Positions 19,103-40,331 of a DNA stretch of 62,674 nucleotides are shown one piece after another. The stretch is from the NCBI RefSeq assembly GCF_030908245.1, contig NZ_JAVFJJ010000020.1, positions 1 through 62,674 of the forward strand, given 5' to 3'. Within the stretch, counting starts at the first letter, position 1. Each line of letters begins with the position of its first letter. The DNA comes from Sinomonas sp. ASV322 (GTDB lineage Bacteria > Actinomycetota > Actinomycetes > Actinomycetales > Micrococcaceae). Position numbers and translations under genes: made by a program. A model generated the notes under the pieces. That model saw only the letters and a list, made by a program, of their open reading frames with translations, did not search any database and had not been told where the DNA came from.

Positions 19103-19124
19103 TGGGTTCTCCTGTTTTGGATTG

Positions 19125-19151
19125 TCGATGCGTATCGACGATGCGCATCGA
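19125..19151. promoter_or_regulatory. Tandem LacI-type operators before the sugar operon
   Basis: TCGATGCGTATCGA (19125-19138) is followed directly by the perfect palindrome CGATGCGCATCG (19139-19150). They lie 23-49 bases upstream of the binding-protein start. The first site is identical to one upstream of lacI, which supports them as the regulator's binding sites. Confidence 0.85.
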
Positions 19152-19194
19152 TTGGTGCTGTTTTTGCTGGGGGTGGGGCTTGGGGGTGGGGCTG

Positions 19195-23738: not shown

Positions 23739-24470
23739 TCAACTCTGAGAGCGCTTCCCTGCCGAGCGGGTCGGCGGGTCGCTGAGATTCGGCTCGCGAT
23801 GGCGAACTGCGGATTCCTGGTTGTGCAGGATGGTGAGCGCGGCGGCAGCCGCGGCTGTCTGATCCTGATCGCGGATCGCGGAGAGAAGCTCTTCGTGGTC
23901 GCAGAGCAGGGTGCCGCTGCCCGGCGCGAAGCAGTCGGTCAGCTCGACCGTAGAGCTGATCACCTCCGAGATGCCCCTGTACATGTCGCGCAGGATCCGG
24001 TTGTGCGACGCGTCGGCCACGCCCACGTGGTAATCGAGATCGGCCTGAACGAACGCCGTTTCGTCGCCCCGGTCGGCCGCTTGCCGGCGTAGCTGCAGGA
24101 TATCGGCGAGCCGGTCGAGGTCGGTCGAGGTGCGGCGGGCCGCGGCCGCCCTGGCGACGGCGATGTCCAGCCCGCGGCGCGCCTCGATCACGTCCATCAC
24201 TTCGGCTGCGCCAAGCTGGCGGCGCAACGCCGCATCCGACTCGTCAGCCGCGATGACGAAGGTGCCAGCACCCTGTCGGGAGGCCAGCAGCCCCACGTGT
24301 ACCAACGCTCGGGTGGCCTCTCGCACAGGTGCCCGGCTCATGCCCAGCTCCTCGGCCAGCTTGGCCTCGGCGGGTAGCCTGTGCCCGATCGGCCAGCTGC
24401 CCGAACCGATCTGCTCGCGGAGCTGGTCGATTGCCTGGTCGACGAGCGACTTGCGGGAGACTGAACGCAT
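23739..24470 (-). CDS. GntR-family regulator (FadR/FCD subfamily)
   Basis: Protein of 243 aa from ATG 24470, with GGAGGGATCA just before it. The winged HTH (LPAEAKLAEELGMSRAPVREATRALVHVGLL) is followed by an FCD effector domain. Metal-ligand positions typical of FCD are visible: FVQADLDYHVGVADASHN, then LLCDHEELLSAI and ALTILHNQ (Asp/His/His set). It is divergent from the cyclic amide hydrolase gene and probably controls that operon in response to a carboxylate or ring-opened product. Confidence 0.9.
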   Translation of the reverse strand: MRSVSRKSLVDQAIDQLREQIGSGSWPIGHRLPAEAKLAEELGMSRAPVREATRALVHVGLLASRQGAGTFVIAADESDAALRRQLGAAEVMDVIEARRGLDIAVARAAAARRTSTDLDRLADILQLRRQAADRGDETAFVQADLDYHVGVADASHNRILRDMYRGISEVISSTVELTDCFAPGSGTLLCDHEELLSAIRDQDQTAAAAAALTILHNQESAVRHREPNLSDPPTRSAGKRSQS

Positions 24471-24592: not shown

Positions 24593-24654
24593 ATGACCTG
24601 ACAACCGTTGACACCCGAGTCAACAGGTCATAAGGTCCCCAGACATCAGGTCAT
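24593..24654. promoter_or_regulatory. Putative GntR operator cluster
   Basis: ATGACCTGA (24593-24601) is repeated in inverse as ACAGGTCAT (24623-24631) and exactly as TCAGGTCAT (24646-24654). GTTGAC and its inverse GTCAAC lie between (about 24607-24624). The cluster sits in the divergent region between the GntR gene and the hydrolase operon. Confidence 0.65.
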
Positions 24655-24718
24655 ATAGTCATCAGACCTCTCATGGGTAGCAAGCTAGTCCGTTCTTGGT
24701 CTCAAGGAGGAGACGCGA

Positions 24719-25831
24719 GTGGCGCACAATCCAGAGGCAGTTCAGCTAGTGGCGGCAACGTTGGAGCACGAGTCGGACACGTCCGCGCTCGGCCGGTTGG
24801 TCGCCGATGGCCGACTACGGCCGGACGAGATCTGCGCGGTCACCGGCAAGACGGAGGGCAACAGCCCTGGTGAGAGCAGCCGGGCGGCCGCCATCGCGGC
24901 CGTCCGCGGATTTCTCGCCGAACACGGCGGGTTGTCGGACGAGCGGATCGGGGCCATCCCGATGGTGTTCTCCAGCGGCGGCGTAGGGATCTTGGCACCT
25001 CACGTGACCATCTACACCAAGCGACCGTGGACGGGACCAGTCGACCGCGAGCCGAGGCTGACCGTCGGTACGGCCAAGTCAGTGCGGATCATGCCGGAGT
25101 GGGTCGGGCATGCCGAGATGATCGAGGCCGTGGCGGATGCGGTGCGGGCCGCCGCTCGAGACGCCAACATTGAACCGGCACAGGCCGAGTACGTCCTCAC
25201 CAAGAGCCGTGGTCTGCAGGCAGAGGACATCGAGGAGGCCCGGACCAGAGGAATAGAGCTCTCGCCGTTCCCCAAGGGCCTTGCGACACCGAAGACGAGC
25301 GGGACGACGGCTCTCGGGGTCGCGGCGGCGGTCGACGGTCTCGCCATCCCGCCCGACGAGGAGATCGGGACCAATCTGAACCTGTGGACCGGCAAGGTCT
25401 CCTCCTCGGCAGGTCGCGAGGACCCCGAGGCCCAGGTCATCCTTCTGGGCAACTCCACCCGGGCCGGCGGCCACCTTCGCGTCGGCCACGCCGTGATGAA
25501 CGACGTGCTGGACATCTCCTCATTCATCCGGGCGGCGGAAGCGGCCGGTCTCGCAGACGTCTGCCTCACGCTCACCCCCGAGCAGCGCAGACGGATCGTG
25601 TCGGTCTACGTCAAGATCGGCACTCCGGTCGATGCCCGCCTCCGCGGGCGTCGGCAGGTCCACCAGGAGCAAAACCCGGGCTACATGAACGAGTTGAAGG
25701 CGGCGGTGGCTGGGATGTTCTCGGCCGTCCTGCAGGACACCGTTCTCTACATCTCGTCGGGGGCCGTGCACCAGGGTCCGGCCGGTGGCGGCACGGTGGC
25801 AGTGATCGTAGATCACTCGCCGGACCTCTGA
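24719..25831 (+). CDS. Ring-opening cyclic amide hydrolase (cyanuric acid hydrolase / barbiturase family)
   Basis: Protein of 370 aa with a GTG start at 24719 behind AAGGAGGAGACGCGA. The three repeated units of the AtzD/barbiturase fold each show their Lys/Ser pair: K44 (TGKTEGNS) with S85/86 (VFSSGGVG), K162 (LTKSRG) with S246 (LGNSTRAGG), and K299 (VYVKIGTP) with S347/348 (YISSGAVHQGPAGGG). These match the known positions of the family closely. The reaction is hydrolysis of a cyclic imide/ureide ring: barbiturate, cyanurate or a related compound. Substrate choice is not decidable here. It is divergent from a GntR regulator and followed by an ABC importer. Confidence 0.9.
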   Translation: MAHNPEAVQLVAATLEHESDTSALGRLVADGRLRPDEICAVTGKTEGNSPGESSRAAAIAAVRGFLAEHGGLSDERIGAIPMVFSSGGVGILAPHVTIYTKRPWTGPVDREPRLTVGTAKSVRIMPEWVGHAEMIEAVADAVRAAARDANIEPAQAEYVLTKSRGLQAEDIEEARTRGIELSPFPKGLATPKTSGTTALGVAAAVDGLAIPPDEEIGTNLNLWTGKVSSSAGREDPEAQVILLGNSTRAGGHLRVGHAVMNDVLDISSFIRAAEAAGLADVCLTLTPEQRRRIVSVYVKIGTPVDARLRGRRQVHQEQNPGYMNELKAAVAGMFSAVLQDTVLYISSGAVHQGPAGGGTVAVIVDHSPDL

Positions 25832-25985
25832 GCCTTTCTTGATGCACCGCAGTTGATCCGACGCCTTACCCAAGAGGCGAGCGGAAATCGGTCGCGCACC
25901 GGAACTCCCCATGGTCCACAGGATCCGGGCGGTCGAGACCGTGCACCACCTTGTCACCCGAAAACCTCCGATCGAGGGGATACAC

Positions 25986-27440
25986 ATGGAACTGCGCAAT
26001 TCTGAACTGGCACGCCGCACCTTCGTCCGCGGCGCCGCGGCGTTCGCGTCCCTGGCCGCACTGGGCGGTGCGGCCGCCTGCACCAGTGACAACAGCAGGG
26101 GCACCTCCACGGCGATCACCAAGGGTCCCGGCCCGGGTGGGTACAAGATCGATCTGGGCGGCTATCAGGGCCCAGAGCTCACCACCGAGCAAATCACCCT
26201 GAAGTTCTTGCGGCAGAGCTACAGCGACGCGATGAATGCCCGCTTCGTCGAGCTGTACGCACAGTTTAACAAGGCCTACCCCAACATCAAGATCGCAGAA
26301 GAACTCATTCCGTACGGCAACCTGCCGCAGAAGATCCAGATCTACACCCAGTCCGGCGACGCACCAGACATCATGATGTCGCGTCTCGACTTCACGACCT
26401 ACATGGCGCGGTCCGGGACAGCCCTGGACCTCACCGGCTATTTCAGCGACAAGTACCTATCGGATCTCTTCAAGCCCATCCGAGACGCCGCCTCGCTCGA
26501 CGGGAAGATGTTCCTGATGCCCTGGGAGGGCTACGTCCCGGTGATCCTGTACAACCGCGACATCTTCAAGAAGGCGGGCGTGGCGACGCCCCCGCAGATC
26601 ACGGACATCGACCACGGCTGGACGGCCGACCAGATGATCGAGACGATGATCGAGCTGACCCACAACCTGCGCAAAAAAGGTGACACCGCGACTTGGGCGC
26701 TAGAGTCCTCGATCCTCGGCAACGGCGGTCCGGGGTCGAACTACACCCAATGCGAGAGCATCTGGATCCGGAGCATGGGCAGCCGAAACGCAGCCAGGGG
26801 CTCGTCGCTGCACAACACCTGGCAGGGTGTCAGCGACGACGGGCTGTCCGTCACCGGGTACATCAACACGCCCGAAGCGATCGCCGGTATGCGCAACTAC
26901 CAGCGCCTTTTCACCGAGGGCCTGACCCCGAAGTCCGCCATCCCGGCACAGTTCCAAGGCCAGCAGGCCGCCATGAGCATGAACTCCACCCGGCAGATCC
27001 TGCAGCGAGATCAGCCGGGCGGCAAGGCGCCGTTCGACGTCGGCATGACCCTGGATCCCACCGGGAACATGCTGTTCGGCTGCAACAGCGGCGACGCCCC
27101 GTTCGTCTGGGCCAAGACCAAACACCCGAACGAGGCCGCTGCGCTGCTAGGGTTCCTGTGCTCGGACGCGAACCAGCCCACGTACTTCCGTACTCGAGGC
27201 GCGTTCATCACCCGCCGGTCGCTGGCCGACAACATGGAGGAGTACCACACGCCGGACGGGCAGCTCTCGATGAAGATCGCGGACAACTGTGACGGCGCCC
27301 CGCGCACCGTCGGCTGGAGCGAGTACTACTCGGCAATGAACCCAGCGGTGAAGAATATCGCGTTGGGTGCCGACCCTGAGAAGACCCTGAACGAGACCGC
27401 AAAGGCGATCGACGATCAGTTGAAGAAGTTCAAGTCATGA
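25986..27440 (+). CDS. ABC transporter substrate-binding lipoprotein (family 1)
   Basis: Protein of 484 aa from ATG 25986 with GAGGGGA upstream. The N-terminus combines a Tat-like motif (ARRTFVRG) and a lipobox (GAAAC). Family-1 binding-protein features: FNKAYPNIKIAEELIPYG, SGDAPDIMMSRLD, and PWEGYVPVILYNRDIFKKAG. It ends LKKFKS. It forms an operon with two permeases (4- and 8-base overlaps) and lies 154 bases after the cyclic amide hydrolase, suggesting uptake of that enzyme's substrate or a conjugate. Confidence 0.92.
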   Translation: MELRNSELARRTFVRGAAAFASLAALGGAAACTSDNSRGTSTAITKGPGPGGYKIDLGGYQGPELTTEQITLKFLRQSYSDAMNARFVELYAQFNKAYPNIKIAEELIPYGNLPQKIQIYTQSGDAPDIMMSRLDFTTYMARSGTALDLTGYFSDKYLSDLFKPIRDAASLDGKMFLMPWEGYVPVILYNRDIFKKAGVATPPQITDIDHGWTADQMIETMIELTHNLRKKGDTATWALESSILGNGGPGSNYTQCESIWIRSMGSRNAARGSSLHNTWQGVSDDGLSVTGYINTPEAIAGMRNYQRLFTEGLTPKSAIPAQFQGQQAAMSMNSTRQILQRDQPGGKAPFDVGMTLDPTGNMLFGCNSGDAPFVWAKTKHPNEAAALLGFLCSDANQPTYFRTRGAFITRRSLADNMEEYHTPDGQLSMKIADNCDGAPRTVGWSEYYSAMNPAVKNIALGADPEKTLNETAKAIDDQLKKFKS

Positions 27441-28414
27441 CGTCTGCAGTCACAACCACCGGAGAAGCTCGCTCCGGGGCTGCACCCGCGACGAAACGGC
27501 GGCGCCCTATCCGCCGCGGGCCGACAGCCAAGAAGGAGCAGCGAAGTGCTGTCCGCCGCGGGCCGGCACCGTGGCTCATGATTGCTCCCGCCGTCGTCGG
27601 CATCATGGTCTTCCAGTACTACCCGGTGCTGGTCGCGGTGGTACACAGCATGCAACGGTTCGATCCGTTCACCCACGCTCCAATCGAGTTCGCCGGGCTG
27701 GACAACTACATCCGGATGTTCACCGGCGCGGACTTCCAGACGTCGTTGTGGAACACCCTGCTGTATGTCGTGATCTCCCTGTTGATCGAGATCCCGCTGA
27801 GCCTAGGGCTGGCCGTCCTGATCGATCGGAAACTGCCGGGAACGAGGTTCGTGAGGATCGCGGTGATCGCGACCTTGGCGGCCTCGGAGACGGTCGCGGC
27901 GATCGTATGGGCGCAGATGTACAGCCCGGATCAGGGTTTATTGAACGGCATTCTCGGCGTCTTCGGGCTTCCGCCCCAGTCCTTCCTGAGCAGTTCGGGG
28001 CAGTCACTGATCTCCGTGGTCGTCATGTCCAGCTGGAAGAACATCGGCATTCCGACGCTGATCTTCCTGACCGGGCTGCAGGCTATCCCGCGGGACTACT
28101 ACGAAGCGGCCGCGATCGACGGCGCGGGCAATTTCCGGCAATTCACCAAGATCACGGTTCCGCTGTTGCGGGGCAGCAGCGTGGTGGTGCTGTTCATGTC
28201 GACCCTTGCCGCGACCCGCATCTTCGTCCCGATCGTGCTGATGACCCAGGGCGGGCCGAACGGCGCCACGAGCAACTTGGTCTACTACTCCTACGAGCAG
28301 GCCTTCCAGTACAACTCAGCCGGAACGGCCTCCGCTGCAGCGATCTTCATGCTGGCGTTCCTCGGGGTGATCATCGCGATCCAGTTCAAAGTGTTGGGAG
28401 CAAAGGATGAGTAG
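27437..28414 (+). CDS. CUT1-type ABC permease (MalF type)
   Basis: Protein of 325 aa starting with an ATGA overlap on the binding-protein stop. A basic N-terminus (KRRRPIRRGPTAKKEQRSAV) precedes six helices. The EAA loop is YEAAAIDGAGNFRQFTKITVP. Partner of the next permease. No ATPase gene nearby. Confidence 0.92.
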   Translation: MTSAVTTTGEARSGAAPATKRRRPIRRGPTAKKEQRSAVRRGPAPWLMIAPAVVGIMVFQYYPVLVAVVHSMQRFDPFTHAPIEFAGLDNYIRMFTGADFQTSLWNTLLYVVISLLIEIPLSLGLAVLIDRKLPGTRFVRIAVIATLAASETVAAIVWAQMYSPDQGLLNGILGVFGLPPQSFLSSSGQSLISVVVMSSWKNIGIPTLIFLTGLQAIPRDYYEAAAIDGAGNFRQFTKITVPLLRGSSVVVLFMSTLAATRIFVPIVLMTQGGPNGATSNLVYYSYEQAFQYNSAGTASAAAIFMLAFLGVIIAIQFKVLGAKDE

Positions 28415-29282
28415 AGCAACGGTCGATTCCCCCGGTCGCCCGGTGGCACGGCGCTCCACACGGTTCGCCGCTTGGACCGTCGCGATGGTGATTGCCGGGA
28501 TGGTATTCGCCTTCCCGATCCTGTGGTTGACCTCGACCTCGTTCAAGTCGACCACGGCGTTCCTGTCCGAGGCCTTTCCGCTGAGCTGGAAGTCGTTCCT
28601 GCCGAGCGAACCGACGCTCGCGAATTTCCTCAGCATCTTCGAGAATTTCCATTTCGAACGGAATCTGCTGAACACCGCGATCGTGTCCGGCGGCCAAATC
28701 CTGGGATCGATGGCCGTCTGCAGCCTCGCCGGCTACGCCTTCGCAGTCCGGGACTTCCGGTTCAAGAGGATGTTGTTCGCGTTGTGCATGGTGCCGGCGT
28801 TCCTACCAGCCGAGGCCCTCATCGTGCCGCTGTACGACGTGGTCAAGAGCCTTGGTCTGGTCTCGACCTACTGGGGGCTGTTCCTGCCCTTCGTGTGCAA
28901 TCCCTTCGGCATCCTGCTGATGCGGCAGGCTTTCAAGGAGGTGCCGAGCTCGATCTTCGACGCTGCCCAGATCGACGGGGCATCGGAGGCGCGGACGTTC
29001 CTGCTCATCGGCCTGCCCAACGTCAAGCCGGCGTTGGCGACACTTGCCCTGCTCCAATTCATCTGGTCATGGAGCTCGTTCTTCTGGCCGTTGGTCGCGA
29101 TGCAGGACCCGGCCAAGCAAGTCGCCCAAGTCGGCATGGCGAACTTTGCCACCGCTGCGAACACCCCGCTTTACGGCGAGATGTTCGCAGCTGCAACGGT
29201 CCTCACGGTGCCCGTGGTGCTCTTGTCAATCATGCTGCAGCGCTACTACGTCAACGGCATGATGAGTTCCAGCGTCAAGTAG
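28407..29282 (+). CDS. CUT1-type ABC permease (MalG type)
   Basis: Protein of 291 aa, overlapping the previous gene by 8 bases. Six helices, first FAFPILWLTSTSFKS. EAA loop FDAAQIDGASEARTFLLIGLP. It ends the operon, with 11 bases to the convergent RpiR gene. An ATPase must be supplied from elsewhere. Confidence 0.92.
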   Translation: MSRATVDSPGRPVARRSTRFAAWTVAMVIAGMVFAFPILWLTSTSFKSTTAFLSEAFPLSWKSFLPSEPTLANFLSIFENFHFERNLLNTAIVSGGQILGSMAVCSLAGYAFAVRDFRFKRMLFALCMVPAFLPAEALIVPLYDVVKSLGLVSTYWGLFLPFVCNPFGILLMRQAFKEVPSSIFDAAQIDGASEARTFLLIGLPNVKPALATLALLQFIWSWSSFFWPLVAMQDPAKQVAQVGMANFATAANTPLYGEMFAAATVLTVPVVLLSIMLQRYYVNGMMSSSVK

Positions 29283-29293
29283 GCGCTGCCCAC

Positions 29294-30157
29294 CTACCGC
29301 AAATCCCCGTCGTCGATCTCCCCCAACGCCTCGAACGACTGCGCGATCCGCATGACGCTGCGCTTTCCCTTCGAGCCGAGGTACTCGAGCGCGGCGTCGG
29401 TGATCTGGGTCGCGGCGCTCATCGCAGCGGCGTAGCTGTCGAAGGCACCCACGCCGTCGATCGGGCAATCCACCCACATGTCCGCATACTGCGCGTAACG
29501 GCGCGCAGTCGAGTCGGCGATGAGGATAATCGTCGCGCCGGTCGTGGGCAGGAGCCGCATGATGTCGCCGAACGCCGAAACGCGGCGGCGGAAGCCGACG
29601 ACCATGACGACGTCGCCCTCACCCACGTGTGCGAATTCCTCGCCGAGCGACTGGCCCGGCTGGGGAGCGAGGACGACGCGCGGGCGCACCTGGGCGAGCG
29701 ACTCCCGCAGGCGCATGGCCACCGGATAGCTGCTCCGCATGCCGACCATCAGGACCGTGCCAGCAGTACAGAGAGCCTCGCTCATCCGCTCAAGCAATTC
29801 GCCGTGAAGCTGCTCGCTGACCCGCCGGATGTTGTCGAGCTCGACGCGGAAGCGCTCGCTCTCGTCGACGGGAGAGGGCGCCGCCCCAAGCGGGACGCCG
29901 CCGCCGCGCAGCGCGCGCACGTGATTCTTGACCTCGGCGAAGTCCTGGAATCCGAGCGACGAGAAGAGCCGGCTGACCGTCGCCGCGGACGTCCCGCTCA
30001 GCTGGGCGAGCTCGGCCACGCTGTACGTCGCGATGTCCCCCAAGTGGTCCAGGACGGTATCGGCCACGCGCTGCGCACGCGGCGGCAAGGTCGGATAGAT
30101 GGCGTCGATCCGGTCGTAGATCGGCCCCCGGTCGGCCTCGACCGCTGCATTCTCCAT
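29294..30157 (-). CDS. RpiR-family transcriptional regulator
   Basis: Protein of 287 aa from ATG 30157 (ATG 30166 is an alternative). N-terminal HTH_6 domain with SVAELAQLSGTSAATVSRLFSSLGF, then a SIS sugar-phosphate-binding domain (VLMVGMRSSYPVAMRLRESL, FAHVGEGDVVMVVG). It lies between the ABC operon and the MFS-led operon, divergent from the latter, which it probably controls. A 60-bp piece of a similar gene occurs near 39.9 kb. Confidence 0.9.
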   Translation of the reverse strand: MENAAVEADRGPIYDRIDAIYPTLPPRAQRVADTVLDHLGDIATYSVAELAQLSGTSAATVSRLFSSLGFQDFAEVKNHVRALRGGGVPLGAAPSPVDESERFRVELDNIRRVSEQLHGELLERMSEALCTAGTVLMVGMRSSYPVAMRLRESLAQVRPRVVLAPQPGQSLGEEFAHVGEGDVVMVVGFRRRVSAFGDIMRLLPTTGATIILIADSTARRYAQYADMWVDCPIDGVGAFDSYAAAMSAATQITDAALEYLGSKGKRSVMRIAQSFEALGEIDDGDLR

Positions 30158-30398
30158 TGCCTTCATCTCCCTGCTGGCCCCTGTGCCGAAAACGATAGCC
30201 CAGCCCGACGGCGGCATCCGTGATCTCGGCCGAAGGGGGTTGCGCGATCCGAACAGCCCTGCGAGACTGTTGAAACAATTCTTCCATGCACTTCACAGAT
30301 GAAAGAAACCATTCATCTGCCGGAGGGACGGCACGGCGACGAAGCCAGCCGCCACTCCGACCACACCACCCGGCGTGAATGACACCCCAGGAGAAGCG

Positions 30399-31751
30399 AT
30401 GTCCCAGCCCGCCTCCGCAGTCACCTCGACCATCGAGGAGCGGAACAGAACTTTCCGACGAATCGCCCTGCGCATCCTCCCGTTCGCCACGATCGTGTAC
30501 GTCATCGCGTGGATCGACCGAGTCAATGTCGGCTTCGCCAAGCTCACGATGCTCAACGACTTGGGCTGGAACGAGGCCATCTACGGCGCAGGCGCGGGGA
30601 TCTTCTTCCTCGGCTATTTCCTGTTCGAGGTCCCCAGCAACCTGCTCCTCCAGAAGATCGGAGCCCCCAAGACGATCATGCGCATCGCCCTCGGCTGGGG
30701 CATCGTCTCCGTGCTCATGGCGTTCTGCACGCAGCCGTGGCACTTCTACACACTGCGCTTCCTCCAGGGAGCCTTCGAAGCCGGCCTCCATCCGGGCCTC
30801 ATCCTGTACCTCACGTTTTGGCTCCCGGCCCATCGCCGATCGCAGGCCATCGCCGTCTTCATGTCCGCGTCGCCGATCGCCCTCCTCGTGGGAAGCCCGC
30901 TCGCGGCCTACATCATGACAGGCACCAAGGGCCTTCTGGGCGCGCACGACTGGCAATGGCTCTTCCTGATCGAAGGCTTCCCCTCGATCATCCTCGGCAT
31001 CGTCGCGGTCTTCGTCATGACGGCCACGCCGGCCGTCGCGAAATGGCTGAGCCCCGCTGAAAAGGCGCACGTTGCCTACGAGCTCGACGCCGAGGCCGCC
31101 ACCCAAGGCGGACGGCAGCACAAGTTCGGCGCGGCCCTCCGAACCCCAACGGTCTGGGTCCTCATCCTGACCCTCTTCTGCATCATCACGGGCAACGCGA
31201 CGCTCTCCTTCTACGGCCCGAGCCTTGTGACGGCCGCGGGCATCAAGGACATCACCGCGGTCGGCTGGATCATGTCGGGCATCTTCCTCTTCGGCTGGGG
31301 CGGCATGATGCTCAACGGCTGGCTCTCCGGCCGCCGTCGTGATTCTCGGTGGCACACGGCGTGCGCCGCGGGCCTCGGGGCGCTCGGCCTCATCCTCGCG
31401 GCCGTCGCCCAGCAGGCCGGAAGCTCCGTCGGCGTCATCCTCGCCCTCGCCCTCTCAGCCGCAGGAACGATGGGATCGATTCCCGTGTTCTGGAGCCTCC
31501 CGCCGCGCTTCATGTCCGGGACGGCCCTCGCCGCGGGACTCGCCCTCATCAATTCGATCGCGAACCTCGCCGGCTATTTCGCGCCGCAATTCCTCGGCGC
31601 CGTCAAGGACGCCACGGGCGTCTACTCGATCGGCCTCTACGTGATCGCCGCCGTCGAATTCGTGGCCGTCGCGCTCGTCCTGCTGTTCATCCGGAAGGAA
31701 CCCGCCCCCACCGAGGCAGTTCCGATCACCGACGCCAGCCCCGCTCTGTAA
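30399..31751 (+). CDS. MFS transporter, anion:cation symporter (ACS) type
   Basis: Protein of 450 aa from ATG 30399, behind AGGAGAAGC. Twelve helices; ACS features include IAWIDRVNVGFAKLTM in helix 1, GYFLFEVPSNLLLQKIGA (motif A region) and ARG-rich central loop. ACS members import organic anions such as tartrate, phthalate or hydroxyphenylacetate. First gene of the catabolic operon opposite RpiR. Confidence 0.9.
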   Translation: MSQPASAVTSTIEERNRTFRRIALRILPFATIVYVIAWIDRVNVGFAKLTMLNDLGWNEAIYGAGAGIFFLGYFLFEVPSNLLLQKIGAPKTIMRIALGWGIVSVLMAFCTQPWHFYTLRFLQGAFEAGLHPGLILYLTFWLPAHRRSQAIAVFMSASPIALLVGSPLAAYIMTGTKGLLGAHDWQWLFLIEGFPSIILGIVAVFVMTATPAVAKWLSPAEKAHVAYELDAEAATQGGRQHKFGAALRTPTVWVLILTLFCIITGNATLSFYGPSLVTAAGIKDITAVGWIMSGIFLFGWGGMMLNGWLSGRRRDSRWHTACAAGLGALGLILAAVAQQAGSSVGVILALALSAAGTMGSIPVFWSLPPRFMSGTALAAGLALINSIANLAGYFAPQFLGAVKDATGVYSIGLYVIAAVEFVAVALVLLFIRKEPAPTEAVPITDASPAL

Positions 31752-31855
31752 ACCCTCTGAGCCGCCGGGCGACGTCGTCGTCGTCCGGTCCGCGCCGAAG
31801 CGGCAGCCGCACTCTGCCGCCCCGGTGCGACCCCACCATTTCGGAAGGATTCGAG

Positions 31856-33313
31856 ATGTCAGAAACAACCTTGCCCAAATCGGGCGACGACCCTCGCACC
31901 ACACCGACAACCGCCAACAGCTCCCGCACGGCCGCGCTCCTCGCCGCGGCGATGGACCGGATCGGCGTGACCCGCTGCCACAAGGTGGTCCTCTTCCTCG
32001 TGACGTTCGGCGCGTTCTTCGATGTCATTGAGCAGAACACCGTCGGCATGGCCGGCCCCGCGCTCACTGCGCAATGGGGCATTTCGTCGGCCCAAGTCGG
32101 CCTCCTCGCCTCGGCCACGTTCGGCGCAATGTATCTCGGCGCCGTCGCGGGCGGCTGGATGGCGGACCGCTGGGGACGCAAGACGATGTTCTCCTTCAAC
32201 CTCGCCGTCTACAGCCTGGGCGGCCTCATCTGCGCCTTCGCGGCCAACTACGCAATGATGGTGGCCGGCCGCATCGTCGTCGGCCTCGGGCTGGGAGGCG
32301 AATTCGTTGTCGGGCTCGCCCTGCTCGCCGAGCTCACCTCGACGAAGTTCCGCGGCACGGCTGTCTCGCTCCTTCAGGTCGGGGCGGGCGGGCTCGGCAA
32401 CCCGGCAGCGAACCTTTTCGGGTTCCTCGTCATCGGCGTGCTCGGCCCCATACTCCCCCTCGTCCTCGGCGGGCCTGACACGGCGTGGCGTTGGCTTTAC
32501 ATCTTCCTTGCTCTCCCCGCACTGCTCGTCCTCTACCTCCGCCGCCACTTCCCGGAGACCCCGCGCTTCCTGGTCATGCGCGGCCGCATCGCGGAGGCCA
32601 ACAAGACCCTGAGCGTGCTCGCGTCGGGACGCATGAACCCGCGTGGAGTCACCGTGACGGAGTACTTGCCCGACGACGCGAGCTTCGACGGCGCCGAGAA
32701 CTCACGCTGGACGGACATCCTCCGCGGGCGCCTCGGCCGGAACTCGGCCGTCCTCGCGACCTGCACATCGATGCTGTTCGGCGCCCAGTTCGTGATGCTC
32801 ACGTTCTGGCCGATCATCCTCATCAGCCGTGGCTACGAGGTGGTCACGAGCCTCGTCTTCACGATGGTGATCGACCTCGGAGCACTCCTCGGCGCGAGCG
32901 CCGCGTCCTTCTTCAACACCAAATTCAAGCGCCGCCCGACGGTCGCTGCCGGCGCGGTGCTTTCGGCGGCAGCGGCCCTTGTTCTGGCCTTCGGCGGCAA
33001 CGACGTCGCCACGATCCTGATCGTCGGCTTCCTCTTCGAATTCTTCTCGTGGTGGACCAACACGGCCATCTCCGCATGGGCCCCCGAACTGTACCCGACG
33101 CGGGTCCGGGCCTTCGGCATCGGCGCCGTCTCCAACCTCGGCCTCATCGGCGGGGCCATCCTCCCCCCGGTCGCGGGCGCGCTCCTGGGCTCGCTCGGCT
33201 CGTCCGCCCTCCTCGGGCTCGTCGGAGTCATGTGCCTCCTCGTCCTCGTGGCCGTTCCCTTCGGCCCCGAGACGTTCGGCCGGTCCCTCGAAGAGATCCA
33301 CGGCGAAGCCTGA
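31856..33313 (+). CDS. MFS transporter, metabolite:H+ symporter (AAHS/SP-like)
   Basis: Protein of 485 aa from ATG 31856. Motif A is GGWMADRWGRKTMF, and helix 4-5 contains GLGLGGEFVVGLALLAELTSTKFRGTA split over the typical sugar-porter/AAHS signature. The second-half signature PELYPTRVRAFGIG is also typical. It is a second importer in the same operon, 105 bases after the first, so two related acids or amides may be taken up. Confidence 0.88.
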   Translation: MSETTLPKSGDDPRTTPTTANSSRTAALLAAAMDRIGVTRCHKVVLFLVTFGAFFDVIEQNTVGMAGPALTAQWGISSAQVGLLASATFGAMYLGAVAGGWMADRWGRKTMFSFNLAVYSLGGLICAFAANYAMMVAGRIVVGLGLGGEFVVGLALLAELTSTKFRGTAVSLLQVGAGGLGNPAANLFGFLVIGVLGPILPLVLGGPDTAWRWLYIFLALPALLVLYLRRHFPETPRFLVMRGRIAEANKTLSVLASGRMNPRGVTVTEYLPDDASFDGAENSRWTDILRGRLGRNSAVLATCTSMLFGAQFVMLTFWPIILISRGYEVVTSLVFTMVIDLGALLGASAASFFNTKFKRRPTVAAGAVLSAAAALVLAFGGNDVATILIVGFLFEFFSWWTNTAISAWAPELYPTRVRAFGIGAVSNLGLIGGAILPPVAGALLGSLGSSALLGLVGVMCLLVLVAVPFGPETFGRSLEEIHGEA

Positions 33314-33332
33314 ATCAGAGAAAGGAAACCGA

Positions 33333-34406
33333 ATGCGCATCGGCGTTGACGGCAAGAAGATCCCCGAGGCAACGAAGCGAGGCCCGATCGGCAGCCTCGA
33401 ACACGCCCACGAGCTCGGGCTGGGTGGAATGTTCTTCCGCACGGTCCTTGAAATGAGCCCCGATTTGGATGTGGGTGAGCTCGCCGCGATCCGGCGACGA
33501 GCCGACGAACTCGGAATGTACCTCGAAACGGGGCTTGGGAAGGTCAATCCCTTCGCGATCCCCGAGGCGCCCGAGCTTCGGGCAGCGGGCGACGGCGACA
33601 CTCTCCTGGGCTTCCGGCGCATGATGGAGGCGTGTGCGGCCATCGATTGCCGCGAACTGTGGGCGTCAACGGCGTATTACAAGCCGATGTTCCCGGGGAA
33701 GCTCGCGGGGGACCGGTTCCGCACCGACGTCACGTGGCCCGAGCAGCTCGTGGCCACCGAGCGGTTCCTCCAGCGCCTCGCCCCCATCGCCCGCGACCTC
33801 GGCATCCACATCAACCTTGAGACGCACGAGGAGATCACGTCGTTCGAACTAGTCCGCCTCGTCGAGGCGGTCGGCCCGGACGTCGTCGGCATCGTCTACG
33901 ACACCGCCAATCCCCTGCACCGCCTCGAGCATCCCGTGAGGACGGCCGAACGCGTGGCGCCGTATGTGCGCCAGACCCATATGAAAGACGCCCATCTCGC
34001 GCACGGTGAGGGCGGCCTCTATTACCAATTGCGCCCGTGCGGAACGGGTGTCGTGGATTTCGCCGAAGTCCTGGCCGTCATTGCCAGAGCGAACCCGGAC
34101 GTCAATCTGACCATCGAAAACGACGAATCGCAGGACGACCGTCCGCGGCCCGCCGAGAAGTGGCTCATCGAGGTCTACGACAAGGATTTCCTCGCCGCCC
34201 ACCCCGACCTTACCGTCGAGGAATTCGCGGAATACCTCGACTTGATCCGGAGCTATGAGGCCAGAATTGCCGGCGGCGACGTGCCCAGCCTTGACGACTA
34301 TGCGGCCCAGCCGTTCGGGTACCGCGAGACGGTGGACTCGATCCTCGCGAGCGCGGACCTCCTGCGCACCGTGTGCGCCGAGCTGAGCCTTCCGCTTGAG
34401 GCATAG
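33333..34406 (+). CDS. Sugar phosphate isomerase/epimerase-like TIM-barrel protein
   Basis: Protein of 357 aa, 19 bases after the MFS gene. It has the xylose-isomerase-like (AP endonuclease 2) pattern: GIHINLETHEEITSFELVRL (Glu ligand), DVVGIVYDTANPLHRLEHP (Asp/His), RQTHMKDAHLAHGEG (His and Asp) and VNLTIENDES (Glu), which fits a divalent metal site. Likely an isomerase or epimerase on the pathway's carbon skeleton; the substrate is unknown. Confidence 0.85.
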   Translation: MRIGVDGKKIPEATKRGPIGSLEHAHELGLGGMFFRTVLEMSPDLDVGELAAIRRRADELGMYLETGLGKVNPFAIPEAPELRAAGDGDTLLGFRRMMEACAAIDCRELWASTAYYKPMFPGKLAGDRFRTDVTWPEQLVATERFLQRLAPIARDLGIHINLETHEEITSFELVRLVEAVGPDVVGIVYDTANPLHRLEHPVRTAERVAPYVRQTHMKDAHLAHGEGGLYYQLRPCGTGVVDFAEVLAVIARANPDVNLTIENDESQDDRPRPAEKWLIEVYDKDFLAAHPDLTVEEFAEYLDLIRSYEARIAGGDVPSLDDYAAQPFGYRETVDSILASADLLRTVCAELSLPLEA

Positions 34407-34449
34407 GCCAGGTCTTGAACACACCGAAGTACGAAAGGAGGTTGATCGA

Positions 34450-35124
34450 GTGCGCCCGCTCCTCCTGATCAACCCGAACACGAGCGAATCGACCACCTTG
34501 GAAATGCTCAGCGTGGCCCGCGCATCGGCCCCTCCCCTTCAAGAGGTGGTAGGCCTGACCGCTGCGCACGGCGCTGCGCTGATCGACGACGAAGCAAAGC
34601 TGGAGACGAGCGCTGAAGCCGTGGTCGACGTCGTCCGTTCCGTCGATCTCGCGGGCTATCGCGGAGTCATCGTCTCGGCGTTCGGCGACCCGGGCCTCGA
34701 GGCGCTGCGCCTCCTCTCCCCCGTCCCTGTGACCGGGATCGCGGAAGCAGGGATCATCGAAGCGGCGCGCGATGGCCGCCGGTTCTCGATCGTCACGACG
34801 ACGCCGAAGCTTGCCTCCGCCATCAACAAGAAGGTGATCCAGTGCGGCTTCGGGCACCTCTACGCGGGGCTCAGGCTCACGGAGGGGCCGGCCGAGGAAG
34901 TCATGAAAGACCCTGACCTTCTCGAGGCGAGCCTCGCTCGCGCGTGCGAGGACGCCGTCTCCCAGGACGCGACCGAGGCGATCGTCATCGGGGGCGGGCC
35001 CCTCGCCGTCTCGGCTGCCTCATTGCGCTGGCGCTTCCCGGTGCCCATCATCGAGCCAGTACCAGCCGCCGTGCGCCTTGCGCTGACGAGAGCGGACGAC
35101 GGCGACCTCCCGCGCGCGTCGTAG
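34450..35124 (+). CDS. Asp/Glu/hydantoin racemase family protein
   Basis: Protein of 224 aa from GTG 34450, with AAAGGAGGTTGATCGA upstream. It opens PLLLINPNTSESTT, the classic hydantoin-racemase start. The two catalytic-Cys regions of the family read VIVSAFGDPGLEAL and AIVIGGGPLAVSA here: the positions normally occupied by Cys (A-F/C-x-D and G-C-x-G) appear to be Ala/Phe and Gly. A racemase mechanism is therefore uncertain; maleate isomerase or decarboxylase-like use of the fold is possible. Confidence 0.8.
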   Translation: MRPLLLINPNTSESTTLEMLSVARASAPPLQEVVGLTAAHGAALIDDEAKLETSAEAVVDVVRSVDLAGYRGVIVSAFGDPGLEALRLLSPVPVTGIAEAGIIEAARDGRRFSIVTTTPKLASAINKKVIQCGFGHLYAGLRLTEGPAEEVMKDPDLLEASLARACEDAVSQDATEAIVIGGGPLAVSAASLRWRFPVPIIEPVPAAVRLALTRADDGDLPRAS

Positions 35125-35192
35125 CGGAAAGCACCGCCATGGCTCGCCTCCGAGACGAATACCTTCCGAAACGAAATAAGGAGATACCAGCA

Positions 35193-36248
35193 GTGACTAT
35201 CGCGAGCGAAACCCTTCCAAGCGAGGCCTTGGAGCTTCCGCGCGAGACCTTCTCCCACCGGTCCATGGATCTCCCGGACGAACTGATCCGGGGCACGAGC
35301 GACCTCCACATCCACAGCGGACCGTGGCTGCAGTCCTGCCCCGGCCGGCTCGACCCCTTCCAGATCGCCGAGCAGGCGAGGGACGCGGGGATGAGGGCGC
35401 TCGTGTTCTACGACCACACGCTTGGCATCAGCAGCGGCACGGCGCAGCTCGCGAGCCGCCAAGTTCCCGGCATCGAGATCTTCGGCGGAATCATCCTCAC
35501 GAGCGTCCTGGGCGGCATGAATCCGCGCGCGGTAAAGACAGCACTGAATTACGGCTCCGGGGCGAAATTCGTGCATTTCGGCGCGCACTGCACGCATTAC
35601 ATGGTGAGCAACGAGGGCAGCTTCGTCGACGGCAAGCCAGTGCGCTTTGTGGACCAGTACCCGAAGTTCGCGAGGGACGAGCTGCCTCGGTCTATCCGGA
35701 TCCCGCTCGACGGTTCGGTTCCCGAAGAGCTCGCGGAGATCCTCACGCTCATCGCCGAGCGCCCCCACGTCCACCTCAATACGGGCCATGTCTCGGTCGA
35801 GGAGGCCATCCGGCTCGCCGATCTCGCTCTCGACTTCGGTATCGAGAAGATCGTTGTGGCTCACCCGTGCCGCGCCCGCATGACGACCGAGCAGCAGAAA
35901 TCGCTGGCCCAGAAGGGCGTCCTGCTCGAGGGCGCCGTCTCCGACTGGATGTTCCACCGCGGCCTCCGCCGGACCAACTACTACGTCGAGCGGGAGCTGG
36001 CCGACGAGATCGCCGGCATCGCGAGCACGCCCGAACTCGCCGGCGGCGTCGTTCCGTGGGCTCGGCAGATCCGCGAGATCGGCATCGAGCACTTCGTGCT
36101 CGGGACTGACTACGGGATCCGCTCTGGGCCCACTCCGCTTGAGGGGATGCGCACCCTTATCAGTACGCTGCTGGACCTCGAATTCACATCTGAGGAAATC
36201 CACACCCTGACTGTTTCCAACGCGGATCGGCTGCTGGGCCTCGACTGA
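35193..36248 (+). CDS. DUF6282-like metal-dependent hydrolase
   Basis: Protein of 351 aa from GTG 35193 behind AAGGAGATACCAGCA; ATG 35139 would add 18 residues without a good ribosome site. Metal-site motifs of the amidohydrolase superfamily are visible: SDLHIHSGPW (HxH), FGAHCTHYM, HLNTGHVSVE, IVVAHPC and FVLGTDYG (terminal Asp). It is last in the operon with the racemase-family protein. Probable role: hydrolysis of an amide or lactone intermediate. DUF6282 assignment is from memory of the family's pattern. Confidence 0.75.
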   Translation: MTIASETLPSEALELPRETFSHRSMDLPDELIRGTSDLHIHSGPWLQSCPGRLDPFQIAEQARDAGMRALVFYDHTLGISSGTAQLASRQVPGIEIFGGIILTSVLGGMNPRAVKTALNYGSGAKFVHFGAHCTHYMVSNEGSFVDGKPVRFVDQYPKFARDELPRSIRIPLDGSVPEELAEILTLIAERPHVHLNTGHVSVEEAIRLADLALDFGIEKIVVAHPCRARMTTEQQKSLAQKGVLLEGAVSDWMFHRGLRRTNYYVERELADEIAGIASTPELAGGVVPWARQIREIGIEHFVLGTDYGIRSGPTPLEGMRTLISTLLDLEFTSEEIHTLTVSNADRLLGLD

Positions 36249-37365: not shown

Positions 37366-37611
37366 GCCACCAGTGTGCCCTAAACGTGTCTGGCAGGCAT
37401 CGACTCACCACCGAGCTTAGCTGTGGAGGCTGCAGCCCCTGACCCCTCCGAGGCCAAAAATCGAGCTGCTCGGCTCATTGATTGCACTCGGCAGATACGA
37501 TACGACGCCCGACGTGGGGTGCCGATCGAGCTGCTTGGGGAGCCGCGAGCCGAAGAAGGGGCCGGGAGCAATTCGCTCTCGCGAACCACTCTCGGCACCC
37601 GTCATCCGAGG

Positions 37612-37854
37612 CTAGGACTCGGACCGCTTGGCCCGGGCGGCTGCGTCGTGGATAACCCACCGCCTGACAAGGATCGTGTCAATGATTGCCTCGAGTATAA
37701 CAATTGACCAGAAGACCCAAATTTGCACCACTGCCCAAATCGTGCCGACTAGCAAAGATATTAGAATCACCGCTGTCGCATACCCATAAATCCGTCGCGG
37801 CCATGTTGCGTTTCTCGCCTCCGCATATTCTCGGAGTACGTGGAGGATCTTCAC
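37612..37854 (-). CDS. Small two-helix membrane protein
   Basis: Protein of 80 aa from GTG 37854, preceded by GGGAGCCTGAC. It opens KILHVLREYAEARNATWPRR, has two membrane segments (TAVILISLLVGTIWAVV and IWVFWSIVILEAIIDTIL) and a basic tail. It follows the frameshifted secreted-protein gene by 17 bases and is probably co-transcribed. Function unknown. Confidence 0.6.
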   Translation of the reverse strand: MKILHVLREYAEARNATWPRRIYGYATAVILISLLVGTIWAVVQIWVFWSIVILEAIIDTILVRRWVIHDAAARAKRSES

Positions 37855-37871
37855 GTCAGGCTCCCACCGTC

Positions 37872-38788
37872 CTAACTGCAGTAGCCGCCAGTGTAACGGA
37901 AGGCCATGGCACCAATAGGGGCAGGAGCCAGCTGAATGCATTCACGGTTCGCGTTCGCGATGATCGCTTGGATCGCAATCTGGCCGGAGGACAGACCGCA
38001 CATCGCGTACGTAACGGGCATCCAGGACGTGAACTTGGCACAGACCTTCAGAACTCCGATCCAAGTTGTCGATGTCATCGTCTCAAACCTGTTCAGCTTC
38101 ACCACAGGGAAGAACCCGAGCCAGCCAAACTGTGGATCTGCCACGATCGGATAGGAGCCGCCACTCGAAGTCGAGACAGTCTGCGTCAGGCGGTTACCCT
38201 TCACTGTGAAGTTGGTCGAGACGTCGCGTCCGGTCGCATCCCGCGCCCACGGCACGTCAACGTAATTGCGGGCATCTCCGTTCGAATCAGACACGAGGAC
38301 AGCACCGCTCGATCCGACCGCCAGCTGAGCAGGCTTCCCGTCGATCGTGATGTCGAAGGAAACGAATGCGCTGCTGATCTTGACTCTATGACCGCGAATC
38401 CAGCTGGCGCGGTGTCTGGCTTCTCGGCAAACACCACCATTAGGCCCTCAGATAGCTTGATCTCCGAAGACGATAGGTCCTTGATTGAGGATTTCTTCGC
38501 CTTCTTCTGGCCAGTTGATACAGGCAGAACGGTCATCGTTCCGCTCTCAGGCCCACTAATGGTCATCGAGCCATCCTGCGCATACTTGACTTGCTGAGAC
38601 TTGTCTTTCGCACGCGTCGACGTGCTGAGGCGCTCAGCACCTTGGAACGGCGACGACTTCTCAACCTGCTCAGTCGGACTCAAACCAGAGTTTCGGCCCT
38701 CGTTCGCCTCAGCCGGCGCAATCGCGCTGATGGCTAGGAACGCAACCGCCGCGAACGACGTCGCCAGCCTTACAAATCGCTTGGACAT
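37872..38788 (-). pseudogene. Secreted protein gene broken by a frameshift
   Basis: From ATG 38788 a Sec signal (MSKRFVRLATSFAAVAFLAI, then APAEA) and mature chain run to about GFAV near 38405. The natural continuation, VKISSAFVSFDITIDGKPAQ, is in another frame and reaches the stop at 37872 through SYPIVADPQFGWLG, a motif seen in many actinobacterial secreted proteins. The first frame instead reads arginine/serine-rich shadow to 38201. A 1- or 2-base indel near 38370-38405 explains both. It could also be a sequencing error. Confidence 0.7.
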
Positions 38789-38915
38789 GTTTCCCCCATT
38801 CCTACGATCGTTCGCTCCTAGGAGCGACCCCGAGGAGTGCTCCCCCTCGCGTGAAGCTCATCCAAACAGTCAGGCCAGACGTTGTCAAACAGTAGGTAAC
38901 GAATAAAGAAGCAAT

Positions 38916-38947
38916 GTTAGGCAATTCTTAGGCGGATTTTAGGCACC
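38916..38947. repeat. Spaced TTAGGC repeats, also present at 48.5 kb
   Basis: GTTAGGCAATTCTTAGGCG (38916-38934) matches GTTAGGCATTTCTTAGGCA (48473-48491) at 17 of 19 bases. Each is followed by TTAGGCACC (38939-38947; 48538-48546). Both copies sit upstream of minus-strand islet genes and beside a decayed gene end. Regulatory direct repeats or recombination scar. Confidence 0.6.
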
Positions 38948-38969
38948 GCTCCTGGCCTGCGCACCGTCG

Positions 38970-39215
38970 CTAGCTTCTCCCGCTTCCTCGAGCCTCAAGC
39001 ACAGCTGTGAGCCTTGCCACCTGCTCGCTGAGAGAACGAATCTGATCCTCGAGCGGCTCCTCGAAGCCCTCGATGACCGCGCCCACCTGTTTGGACGTCC
39101 TTGCCGCAGTCTCCGCGGACACACTCTCCACGAGCCACGAGGCGATCGACGCCGTCATCACGCCGAGCACGGCGATGCCCGCCACCATCAGGCCAGCGGC
39201 GAAGCGCCCGACTGC
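38970..39215 (-). pseudogene. 3' remnant of a third potassium channel gene
   Basis: The frame ending at 38970 encodes GRFAAGLMVAGIAVLGVMTA, then SIASWLVESVSAETAART and LEDQIRSLSEQVARLTAVLE, nearly the same as the end of copy 2 (22287-23042). Pore and filter are missing: similarity stops about 39215, just at the position following the filter. No start codon or upstream channel sequence remains. Confidence 0.85.
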
Positions 39216-39275
39216 TGACCGGGATCGGACGCGTCGCTTCCCCGGTCCCCCGATTGCACGGGAGACAATCGACCC

Positions 39276-39854
39276 ATGGGCGGAACGATGTATGGAGCGC
39301 ATGGTCCTGACGGTCGAGCAGCGACGCGGCGACAACGCTCGCTCGCTGCGGCCGAAGACTTCGGCTTGTTCGCGGCACGCGTGTCTTCGTTGGGGATTCG
39401 TCAAGGATCGGTGGAGGGACCGTCATCGTCCCGTCGCGGCAAGACGGTAGTGACCCGGTTCGTCCGGGTAGGCGGTAGTGCCGGGGGCAGCGGGGCCTCG
39501 GAGTGTCTGGTAACGCTGAAGCCGCCAACCGCCGCTGGGCTGACCCCCGTGCAAATACTCGAATCTCTCGCGACGGAGATGTCAGCCTTTGCACAACGTG
39601 CACTGGGAGCCGAGGACTTTTCTATCGCGCGGGTGCTTGCGCATGCAGCCGGGGAACCCGCCTCCCTCCGGATTGACGGGAGCCCGCGGGAGGGCTGGTC
39701 ACTCCGAGCCGGACATATCAGCGGCGTCGCGTGTCGCCACGCCGATCGGATAGTGATGTGGCTGGGTGTGGAAAGCGCGCCACCCCGGCTGATAGACACC
39801 GAAGATTTGGCCGATGCGCTCCGTAGAATATCGCCGTCGAGAGTGGTCGACTAA
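39276..39854 (+). CDS. Hypothetical protein
   Basis: Protein of 192 aa (ATG 39276, or ATG 39288). N-terminal half is Arg/Ser-rich and may be unstructured; the C-terminal half looks globular (LTPVQILESLATEMSAFAQ, GEPASLRIDGSPREGWSL, DRIVMWLGVESAPPRLI). No family recognised. It lies between a potassium-channel remnant and an RpiR remnant. Confidence 0.5.
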   Translation: MGGTMYGAHGPDGRAATRRQRSLAAAEDFGLFAARVSSLGIRQGSVEGPSSSRRGKTVVTRFVRVGGSAGGSGASECLVTLKPPTAAGLTPVQILESLATEMSAFAQRALGAEDFSIARVLAHAAGEPASLRIDGSPREGWSLRAGHISGVACRHADRIVMWLGVESAPPRLIDTEDLADALRRISPSRVVD

Positions 39855-39916
39855 CGCCGACTATGACGACGTCGTCCTCGCCGACGTGCGCGAGCTCCTC
39901 GCCGAGCGCTTGGCCT
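39854..39916 (-). pseudogene. Internal fragment of an RpiR-type regulator gene
   Basis: The minus strand encodes GQALGEELAHVGEDDVVIVG, matching PGQSLGEEFAHVGEGDVVMV of the SIS domain of the RpiR gene at 29294-30157. Only about 60 bases are left, ending abruptly at the VOC gene's downstream side. No frame extends either way. Confidence 0.75.
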
Positions 39917-39920
39917 TATC

Positions 39921-40331
39921 TCACCCCTGCAGACTTAGCTGCCACGACACCCCGAACCGGTCGTTGACCCACCCGAACTTGGCGCCGAAGCCGTAGCTTC
40001 CCAACGGCATGAGTTCCGTTCCCTGCTCGGCGAGGGCCGCGTAGAGGCGGTCGATCTCGGCCTCGTCCTGGCACTGGACGAAGAGCGAGACCGACGGGGT
40101 GAAGGTGAAGTCGTGCGCGACGGGGCTGTCGATGCACATATATCGCTGGCCAGCGAGCGAGAACGATGCGTGCTGCACGGTCCCCTCCCTGCCCGGACCA
40201 TCCGGGCCGTAGAGGCTCACGGTGATGATCTCGGCGTCGTCGAAGAGCGAAGTGTAGAAGGTCATTGCTTCCTCGGCGTTGCCTTCGAACATCAGGAATG
40301 TCGTGATCTTCTGCGGGGTTTCGATCTCCAT
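39921..40331 (-). CDS. PhnB-like VOC family protein
   Basis: Protein of 136 aa. It opens KITTFLMFEGNAEEAMTFY and ends KFGWVNDRFGVSWQLS, the hallmark first and last strands of PhnB/3-demethylubiquinone-methyltransferase-like VOC proteins. FSLAGQRYMCIDSP and VSLFVQCQDEAEIDRLYAAL lie between. Complete single module; substrate unknown. Confidence 0.9.
   Translation of the reverse strand: MEIETPQKITTFLMFEGNAEEAMTFYTSLFDDAEIITVSLYGPDGPGREGTVQHASFSLAGQRYMCIDSPVAHDFTFTPSVSLFVQCQDEAEIDRLYAALAEQGTELMPLGSYGFGAKFGWVNDRFGVSWQLSLQG

Follow-up and report, generated by a model that had tools for sequence, protein, structure and literature searches.

What does a ring opener of the cyanuric acid hydrolase/barbiturase family do when it is encoded beside a sugar-type importer and an isomerase-like protein? 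This question is raised by a contig of Sinomonas sp. ASV322 (host genome 4.34 Mb), which was analysed over its entire 62,674 bases and is referred to here as the window, and in which the genes of an apparent catabolic island span 23.7-36.3 kb, followed by what we take, from reading the sequence by eye, to be a dinB-like polymerase gene. We hold, at about even confidence, that the locus is a modular catabolic island, put together by horizontal transfer, whose substrate is an N-heterocycle of the cyclic imide or ureide type, or related compounds, other than barbiturate or cyanurate. Judging from the specificity residues of the ring opener, the substrate is probably neither of these two, which are the sole established substrates of the ring-opener fold in the literature seen, with groups IV and V of Peat 2013 hinting at others (available part of PMC3758960).

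The ring opener scored above the curated cut-offs of its family (231.1 versus 153.1 bits for TIGR02714; 253 versus 25 for PF09663) and below that of the cyanuric acid hydrolase equivalog NF052395 (248.8 of 360 bits). Its nearest solved relative was the Rhodococcus barbiturase (PDB 5hwe; 211 bits, 37% identity). A survey of 394 genomes of the class, scoring the best five candidates in each, gave matches in 83, the host genome among them, and the full-length matches other than the window protein itself were all at most 39% identical; a contig scan with the ring opener alone gave 60 pattern matches, with no relative among them. We found three closer relatives, about 45-50% identical, in the Rhizobiales genome AFS059704 (G665; 49-50%), in G870 (50%) and in Arthrobacter terricola (G646; 47%), as compared with 35-38% identity to barbiturase-type proteins and 31% to AtzD. 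These four proteins formed a clade near barbiturase with a support of 100/100 in a tree of 55 rows. The tree has long branches and was rebuilt twice without some of them; support stayed at 100/100 on removal of L176 and L182, and was 100/99 when L176 was the one partner retained. On these sequence comparisons, the ring opener belongs to a new, well-supported clade near barbiturase.

The specificity residues, at AtzD positions 195, 321, 325, 345 and 346, are R, T, R, G and G in cyanurate hydrolases and N, H, K, V and S/A in barbiturase, according to the available part of PMC3758960. The window enzyme reads S, M, K, S, G at these positions, agreeing with the cyanurate signature at G346 alone and with the barbiturase signature at K325 alone; the AFS059704, G870 and A. 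terricola proteins read S, G, K, G, S; S, V, K, A, G; and S, I, K, A, A, respectively. Thus, as compared with barbiturase (group VI of Peat 2013, PMC3758960), its nearest characterised relative by sequence, the window enzyme shares the family, the three Ser-Lys pairs and the Lys at 325, and is without the other four specificity residues, the acidic residue at 89 and Glu298; as compared with AtzD/TrzD, it belongs to the same family and is without Arg195, Thr321, Arg325 and Gly345. The metal ligand Glu298, part of a site present in 90% of homologues in the same source (PMC3758960, available part), is replaced by Gly in the window enzyme and by Ser, Ser and Gln in the other three, so that the metal Glu is gone in all four clade members. 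Glu298 is common in the family and is not a requirement for membership.

The identity of the catalytic pair is disputed in print, being given as Ser85-Lys42 (PMC3758960) or as Ser226-Lys156, the latter called absolutely conserved (PMC4051656), in the available parts of these papers. By our own reading, Ser226 of the second numbering is equated with Ser233 of AtzD. The window enzyme keeps all six residues of the three Ser-Lys pairs (AtzD 85/42, 233/162 and 344/296), and Lys42, Arg54, Lys162, Lys296 and Ser344 are retained throughout the clade; the three other members have Ala in place of Ser233 and two have Thr in place of Ser85, leaving Ser344-Lys296 as the sole pair common to the four. A neighbouring serine, at 235, remains and, to our knowledge, no enzyme of the clade has been assayed so far; the loss of Ser233 is therefore a question raised rather than a mechanism.

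As a control, we used 20 barbiturase-type loci of the class, 20 kb each and all with the barbiturase signature, hand-picked among the loci of the 394-genome survey for contigs reaching far enough on both sides and searched at E <= 1e-8, at least 120 residues and identity floors of 20-35%. They replaced an earlier control of 40 loci, most of about 4 kb, which was too short for fairness. None of the 20 held a homologue of the binding protein, permeases, TIM barrel, DUF6282 protein, major facilitator superfamily (MFS) transporters, racemase-fold protein, RpiR regulator, aminohydrolase, HMGL or M24 protein, and one held a GntR gene. The sequence-only reading had held that classical barbiturate and cyanurate loci use neither an isomerase of this kind nor a sugar-type ATP-binding cassette (ABC) system. 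The former agrees with the control (0/20). The latter is borne out by all 20 barbiturase-type loci but is to be set against a plasmid locus of Polaromonas sp. E10S (L198), in which a cyanurate-like ring opener (Ser at 321) lies by an ABC importer (SBP_bac_8), an RpiR regulator, a ureidoglycolate lyase and a dihydropyrimidinase; some loci of the family, therefore, do carry an ABC importer together with RpiR. In another plasmid locus, on pE51_002 of Citrobacter freundii (L196), a ring opener with the cyanurate-type signature adjoins a nucleobase:cation symporter-2 protein, FdrA, DUF1116 and carbamate kinase. A plain barbiturate or cyanurate locus was rejected on the signature residues and the genomic context, which differed from that of all 20 barbiturase-type loci. 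As compared with atzDGEHF-type loci, no biuret or allophanate hydrolase was present among the island genes; the clusters of the relatives do pair the ring opener with aminohydrolases of the chlorohydrolase kind, as those loci do.

The grouping of the island genes exceeds chance, since their homologues are linked again elsewhere and in none of the control loci. In AFS059704, which belongs to another phylum than the actinobacterial host of the window, importer, isomerase and ring opener are grouped again. A stretch of this genome (L187) holds, all within about 10.5 kb of the start of the ring opener, a GntR/FCD gene, two aminohydrolases, a TIM barrel (59% identity), a creatinase-like M24 gene, two permeases (45% and 51%) and a binding protein (46%), followed by a MalK-type ATPase, a second TIM barrel and an arylmalonate-decarboxylase-like gene. 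The TIM barrel lies about 3.8 kb from the ring opener and is the sole match at E <= 1e-40 in its genome (seven of seven candidates scored); the binding protein is the sole match at E <= 1e-60 (5 of 37 candidates scored). One aminohydrolase matched the chlorohydrolase family PRK06151 with 657 bits (cut-off 416), and the other, under all cut-offs, was nearest to the N-ethylammeline chlorohydrolase and 5'-deoxyadenosine deaminase models. On the other side of the ring opener (L127) are two DUF6282 genes. In A. terricola, a TIM barrel (65%) lies 1.4 kb from the ring opener, in a stretch also holding an M24 gene, a Dpp-type binding protein, HMGL-like genes and an OHCU-decarboxylase domain, and a core of RpiR (72-74% identical), anion:cation symporter (ACS), racemase-fold and DUF6282 genes is found on a different contig. 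Rhizobium sp. S152 holds together RpiR (29%), TIM barrel (58%), importer (45-52%), ATPase, DUF6282 (71%) and racemase-fold (44%) genes, and Kribbella jiaozuonensis holds AAHS (67%), TIM barrel (77%), DUF6282 (76%) and racemase-fold (38%) genes. In G870, the importer, a TIM barrel (50%) and relatives of both aminohydrolases are grouped. Because the clusters of the relatives carry aminohydrolases and creatinase-like genes, the N-heterocycle reading is strengthened. The joint occurrence of parts of the set in distant bacteria suggests a so far undescribed pathway for a compound of this kind.

The frequency of linkage was assessed in 72 loci from named genomes, fetched through an alignment of the DUF6282 protein, 13 of which hold DUF6282 at 67% identity or more. 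Genes in the fetched loci were called by a simple GC-frame script, which gave some wrong frames (e.g. in L099 and L185), and the key ones were checked by tblastn; partners were matched by tblastn (E <= 1e-8) within the fetched flank. Around the 13 loci we found the racemase-fold protein in nine, ACS (75-81%) in six, the RpiR family in eight (72% in one and 28-31% in seven), the TIM barrel at 45% or more in four, AAHS at 60% or more in one, and the CUT1 set in one. Among all 72 loci, a ring opener lay within the flank in one, that of AFS059704, where the new-clade gene is 6.4 kb from the two DUF6282 genes (50%). Adjacent pairs of DUF6282 genes with Dpp-type transport genes and a GAF sensor kinase were seen in this locus and in Qingshengfaniella (L100), and paired DUF6282 genes also occur in Devosia and Kaistia loci, a second recurring context. 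In a sample of 297 genomes from the order to which G665 belongs, only G665 and G870 carried the ring-opener clade, two more genomes having 36-38% proteins, and only G665 and G870 carried the binding protein at E <= 1e-60. The two samples were apparently the same draw, centred on G665, with the best five or six candidates per genome scored; since G665 was chosen for having both genes, G870 alone is an independent case.

Several observations weigh against a single island for such a compound. The ring opener was present in the flank of none of the 13 close-DUF6282 loci, and in the whole genomes of these 13 a new-clade ring opener was found in A. terricola only, a 31-36% ring opener in three and none in nine. 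In G870, 0.55 Mb separates the ring opener from the importer/TIM-barrel cluster, the 40 kb around the ring opener holding no partners, and a further importer copy (L238) is without such partners within 20 kb. In Shinella, Pararhizobium and Arthrobacter, the core of the downstream unit (ACS, racemase-fold and DUF6282 genes) is found with neither ring opener nor importer, and the whole set was together in no other genome examined. The island itself has no aminohydrolase of the relatives' kind, so that this part of the substrate argument comes from the relatives. Lastly, no copy of the putative operator CAGGTCAT lies upstream of the binding-protein gene or in the RpiR-ACS interval. Separate conservation of the units, named by the sequence-only reading as one of the outcomes that would speak against it, was thus seen in the 13 close-DUF6282 flanks, and linkage recurred in AFS059704, A. 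terricola and Rhizobium S152; because the downstream core recurs without the ring opener, we regard the island as modular. A TRIS pathway for the copy in Shinella Teo12 was set aside, the TRIS genes being on another plasmid, p2 (PMC10848231, available part).

The importer has the CUT1 composition of an SBP_bac_1 binding protein and two permeases, shared with sugar and glycerophosphate importers. As compared with these, the island operon is without an ATPase, and no MalK-type ATPase was found among the window open reading frames; 12 MalK-type matches at E <= 1e-40 are encoded elsewhere in the host genome (best 53% identity), and in the G665 and G653 relatives the ATPase adjoins the importer. 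Plasmid matches of the binding protein were 22-27% identical (best 25 of 325), as compared with 44-50% for the closest found, which lie mostly near TIM barrels or aminohydrolases, including TIM barrels in G665, G653 and G870. The TIM barrel was assigned the ketose 3-epimerase family fold, and E163, D190, H216 and E262 were invariant in all eight aligned sequences; these may correspond to the Glu-Asp-His-Glu metal ligands of ketose 3-epimerases. It differs from D-tagatose/D-psicose 3-epimerases in its identity of 14-17%, its extra length of about 60 residues and its occurrence in several loci with aminohydrolase, M24 or ring-opener genes. A search of PDB sequences gave two weak matches.

The racemase-fold protein shares the Asp/Glu racemase fold with hydantoin and allantoin racemases (3qvj and 5lfd; 90 bits to 3qvk). 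The positions of the two catalytic cysteines of 3qvj, of which 5lfd has the second, read Ala and Gly in the window protein. The same holds for 12 of 14 aligned relatives; of the other two, L060 retains the second Cys, and in L061 the second position was not covered. A racemase role was therefore rejected, and the earlier label "hydantoin-racemase-family" misleads. The DUF6282 protein was assigned a TIM-barrel hydrolase fold of the amidohydrolase superfamily. Its H18, H20, H111, H178 and D285, invariant in 26 of 26 rows, would be metal ligands (HxH, His, Asp). A PDB sequence search gave one match at E 0.83, and DUF6282 was not named in the literature searched.

The CAGGTCAT box occurs eight times in the window as compared with 1.28 expected, and none of 100 shuffles reached eight. 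Three copies lie between the GntR gene and the ring opener, two of them in a 23-nt direct repeat, and one lies inside the ring-opener gene. A common operator for all units was rejected, the candidate boxes being at the ring-opener promoter only, and the box was not enriched at the GntR genes of the relatives' loci. In the Rhizobium S152 locus (L110) the box is present four times, once between the ATPase and DUF6282 genes. The window GntR is 51% identical to a GntR adjoining a TIM-barrel/aminohydrolase cluster in G105.

The distribution of the island is patchy, which points to horizontal transfer. Apart from the host itself, DUF6282 at E <= 1e-30 was found in none of 296 class genomes sampled, and a related, interrupted copy occurs in the same-genus genome G010 (L095, G010:C34:83000-102999; about 40-49%, E 1.5e-35, with stop codons in the matched pieces). 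Yet relatives that are 76-78% identical occur in Rhizobiales and ones of 81-84% in Arthrobacter; module relatives nearest in Arthrobacter, like the Rhodococcus-like barbiturases of the class, are in keeping with an actinobacterial host. The ring opener was found in none of 14 same-genus genomes searched. Ten same-genus genomes have the dinB-like gene, and in all six stretches taken from these the gene is retained and the island beside it absent; the left side differs, and no exact border of an empty site was found. Between the dinB-like gene and the next conserved gene, about 2.5 kb (37405-39921) is missing in two same-genus stretches (G006 and G009), perhaps another insertion at the same spot.

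From this gene content and these residues we infer the following pathway. Uptake of the compound, or of forms already partly degraded, would fall to the two MFS symporters and to the CUT1 importer, the latter driven by a shared MalK-type ATPase whose gene lies elsewhere. A ring amide bond would be hydrolysed through Ser-Lys chemistry by the new-clade ring opener, and the opened product would be processed by the TIM-barrel isomerase/epimerase, the DUF6282 metal hydrolase and the racemase-fold protein without cysteines. GntR/FCD may control the ring-opener/importer unit at the CAGGTCAT boxes, and RpiR may control the second unit. The catabolic island for a cyclic amide or ureide proposed by the sequence-only reading holds insofar as the ring opener is grouped with an importer and an isomerase lacking in the control loci; its unity is to be qualified, as the downstream core is separate elsewhere. 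The sugar-linked substrate also raised there is an unproven suggestion from the transporter and isomerase families. A bolder version, speculative and rather unlikely as a whole, is an undescribed pathway spread horizontally between Actinobacteria and Alphaproteobacteria that would import a sugar- or polyol-linked amino-N-heterocycle (e.g. plant pyrimidine glycosides), deaminated in some hosts; its ring would be opened by a Toblerone-fold clade without the metal Glu and with Ser344-Lys296 as the only pair in all four members, and the product would pass to the cysteine-less racemase-fold enzyme and to a DUF6282 hydrolase with an activity not seen before.

The main and serious rival to one modular island is that two unrelated units are neighbours, a ring opener with importer for an N-heterocycle, and an RpiR-controlled MFS/TIM-barrel/racemase-fold/DUF6282 unit for a sugar acid or similar organic acid. 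Sugar acids are the typical substrates of ACS carriers, and the ACS/DUF6282 core, mostly with the racemase-fold protein, stands alone on a plasmid of Shinella zoogloeoides Teo12 and in S. zoogloeoides PQ7, Pararhizobium and Arthrobacter; the nine close-DUF6282 genomes without any ring opener, the separate regulators and the want of a common operator fit this explanation as well. However, the TIM barrel of the second unit lies close to the ring opener in both A. terricola and AFS059704, and the importer of the first unit is grouped with the TIM barrel, DUF6282 and racemase-fold proteins in Rhizobium S152. We therefore consider two independent units possible, though not probable.

The remaining rivals concern the ring opener itself. 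That it is an ordinary barbiturase or cyanuric acid hydrolase, drifted in sequence and recruited beside a sugar operon, would agree with its clear family membership, the Rhodococcus barbiturase as best solved relative, and the retained Lys325 and Ser-Lys pairs. We regard this as quite unlikely, as the protein is closer to its own clade than to barbiturase-type proteins, its signature fits neither type, Glu298 is gone in all four members, the cyanurate equivalog is missed, and none of the 20 barbiturase-type loci has its neighbours. Alternatively, the clade may have lost hydrolase activity or may perform other chemistry (e.g. binding or a lyase step), so that the island opens no rings; the Ala in three of four members at the serine reported as absolutely conserved, the Thr for Ser85 in two and the missing metal ligand in all four could be read in this way. 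Against this, the window protein keeps Ser85, Ser233 and Ser344 with their lysines, and Ser344, the three lysines and Arg54 persist throughout the clade, making this explanation very unlikely. We thus prefer the modular N-heterocycle island.

The genes named by the sequence-only reading, the GntR and RpiR regulators included, were all recovered by profile matches on the window open reading frames (Table 1), with likely starts picked by eye from ribosome-binding-like sequence. The GntR/FCD gene lies outside the range 24593-36248 given there, because its likely start is 24470. Gaps within units are -4, -8, 104, 19, -11 and 14 bp (frames as used). The ring opener is separated from the binding protein by 79 bp, and therefore two transcription units are possible; the three proposed earlier are not required.

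Table 1. Features of the island in the window, with strand and supporting matches
Feature	Position	Strand	Remarks
GntR/FCD regulator	23739..24470	-	PF00392 + PF07729; longest frame to 24623, likely ATG 24470; divergent from ring opener
Three CAGGTCAT boxes	24593-, 24624+, 24647+ (24593..24654)		Candidate GntR operators, putative function
AtzD/TrzD/barbiturase-family ring-opening amidohydrolase, new clade	24719..25831	+	PF09663 253 bits; TIGR02714 231.1 bits
CUT1-type solute-binding protein	25911..27440	+	SBP_bac_1, PF01547 90 bits
Two CUT1-type permeases	27437-28414, 28407-29282	+	PF00528; UgpA-like and GlcU-like matches under cut-off
RpiR/SIS regulator	29294..30217	-	PF01418, PF01380
MFS transporter, ACS type	30375..31751	+	TIGR00893 281 bits, under cut-off 395
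MFS transporter, AAHS-like	31856..33313	+	TIGR00895 187 bits, under cut-off 419
Xylose-isomerase-like TIM barrel, ketose 3-epimerase fold	33333..34406	+	
Asp/Glu/hydantoin-racemase-fold protein	34450..35124 (longest frame from 34396)	+	PF01177 147 bits
DUF6282 protein, predicted amidohydrolase-superfamily metal hydrolase	35193..36248 (likely start 35193)	+	

Outside the island, a second sugar-type catabolic cluster lies 3.5 kb to its left (13831-20217, minus strand), with a Gfo/Idh/MocA oxidoreductase, a ThuA-domain protein, an ABC permease domain and a LacI regulator. The contig may end at repeated elements, as it carries an integrase-core (rve) protein on the far left (79-1380) and an IS110-type transposase on the far right (61535-62629). 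Elsewhere in the host genome, L067 (C8:20000-39999) and L065 (C12:305000-324999) are paralogous clusters with two TIM barrels each and Dpp-type transport genes, the former adding a berberine-bridge-type FAD oxidase, an M24 gene, an ornithine-cyclodeaminase-family gene and aminohydrolases.

Because the new clade comes with transporters and likely downstream enzymes, its substrate is open to growth tests. The clade also bears on the printed dispute over the catalytic pair, since a serine called absolutely conserved is absent in three of its members. In addition, the DUF6282 and cysteine-less racemase-fold proteins, two uncharacterised subfamilies, gain a genomic context.

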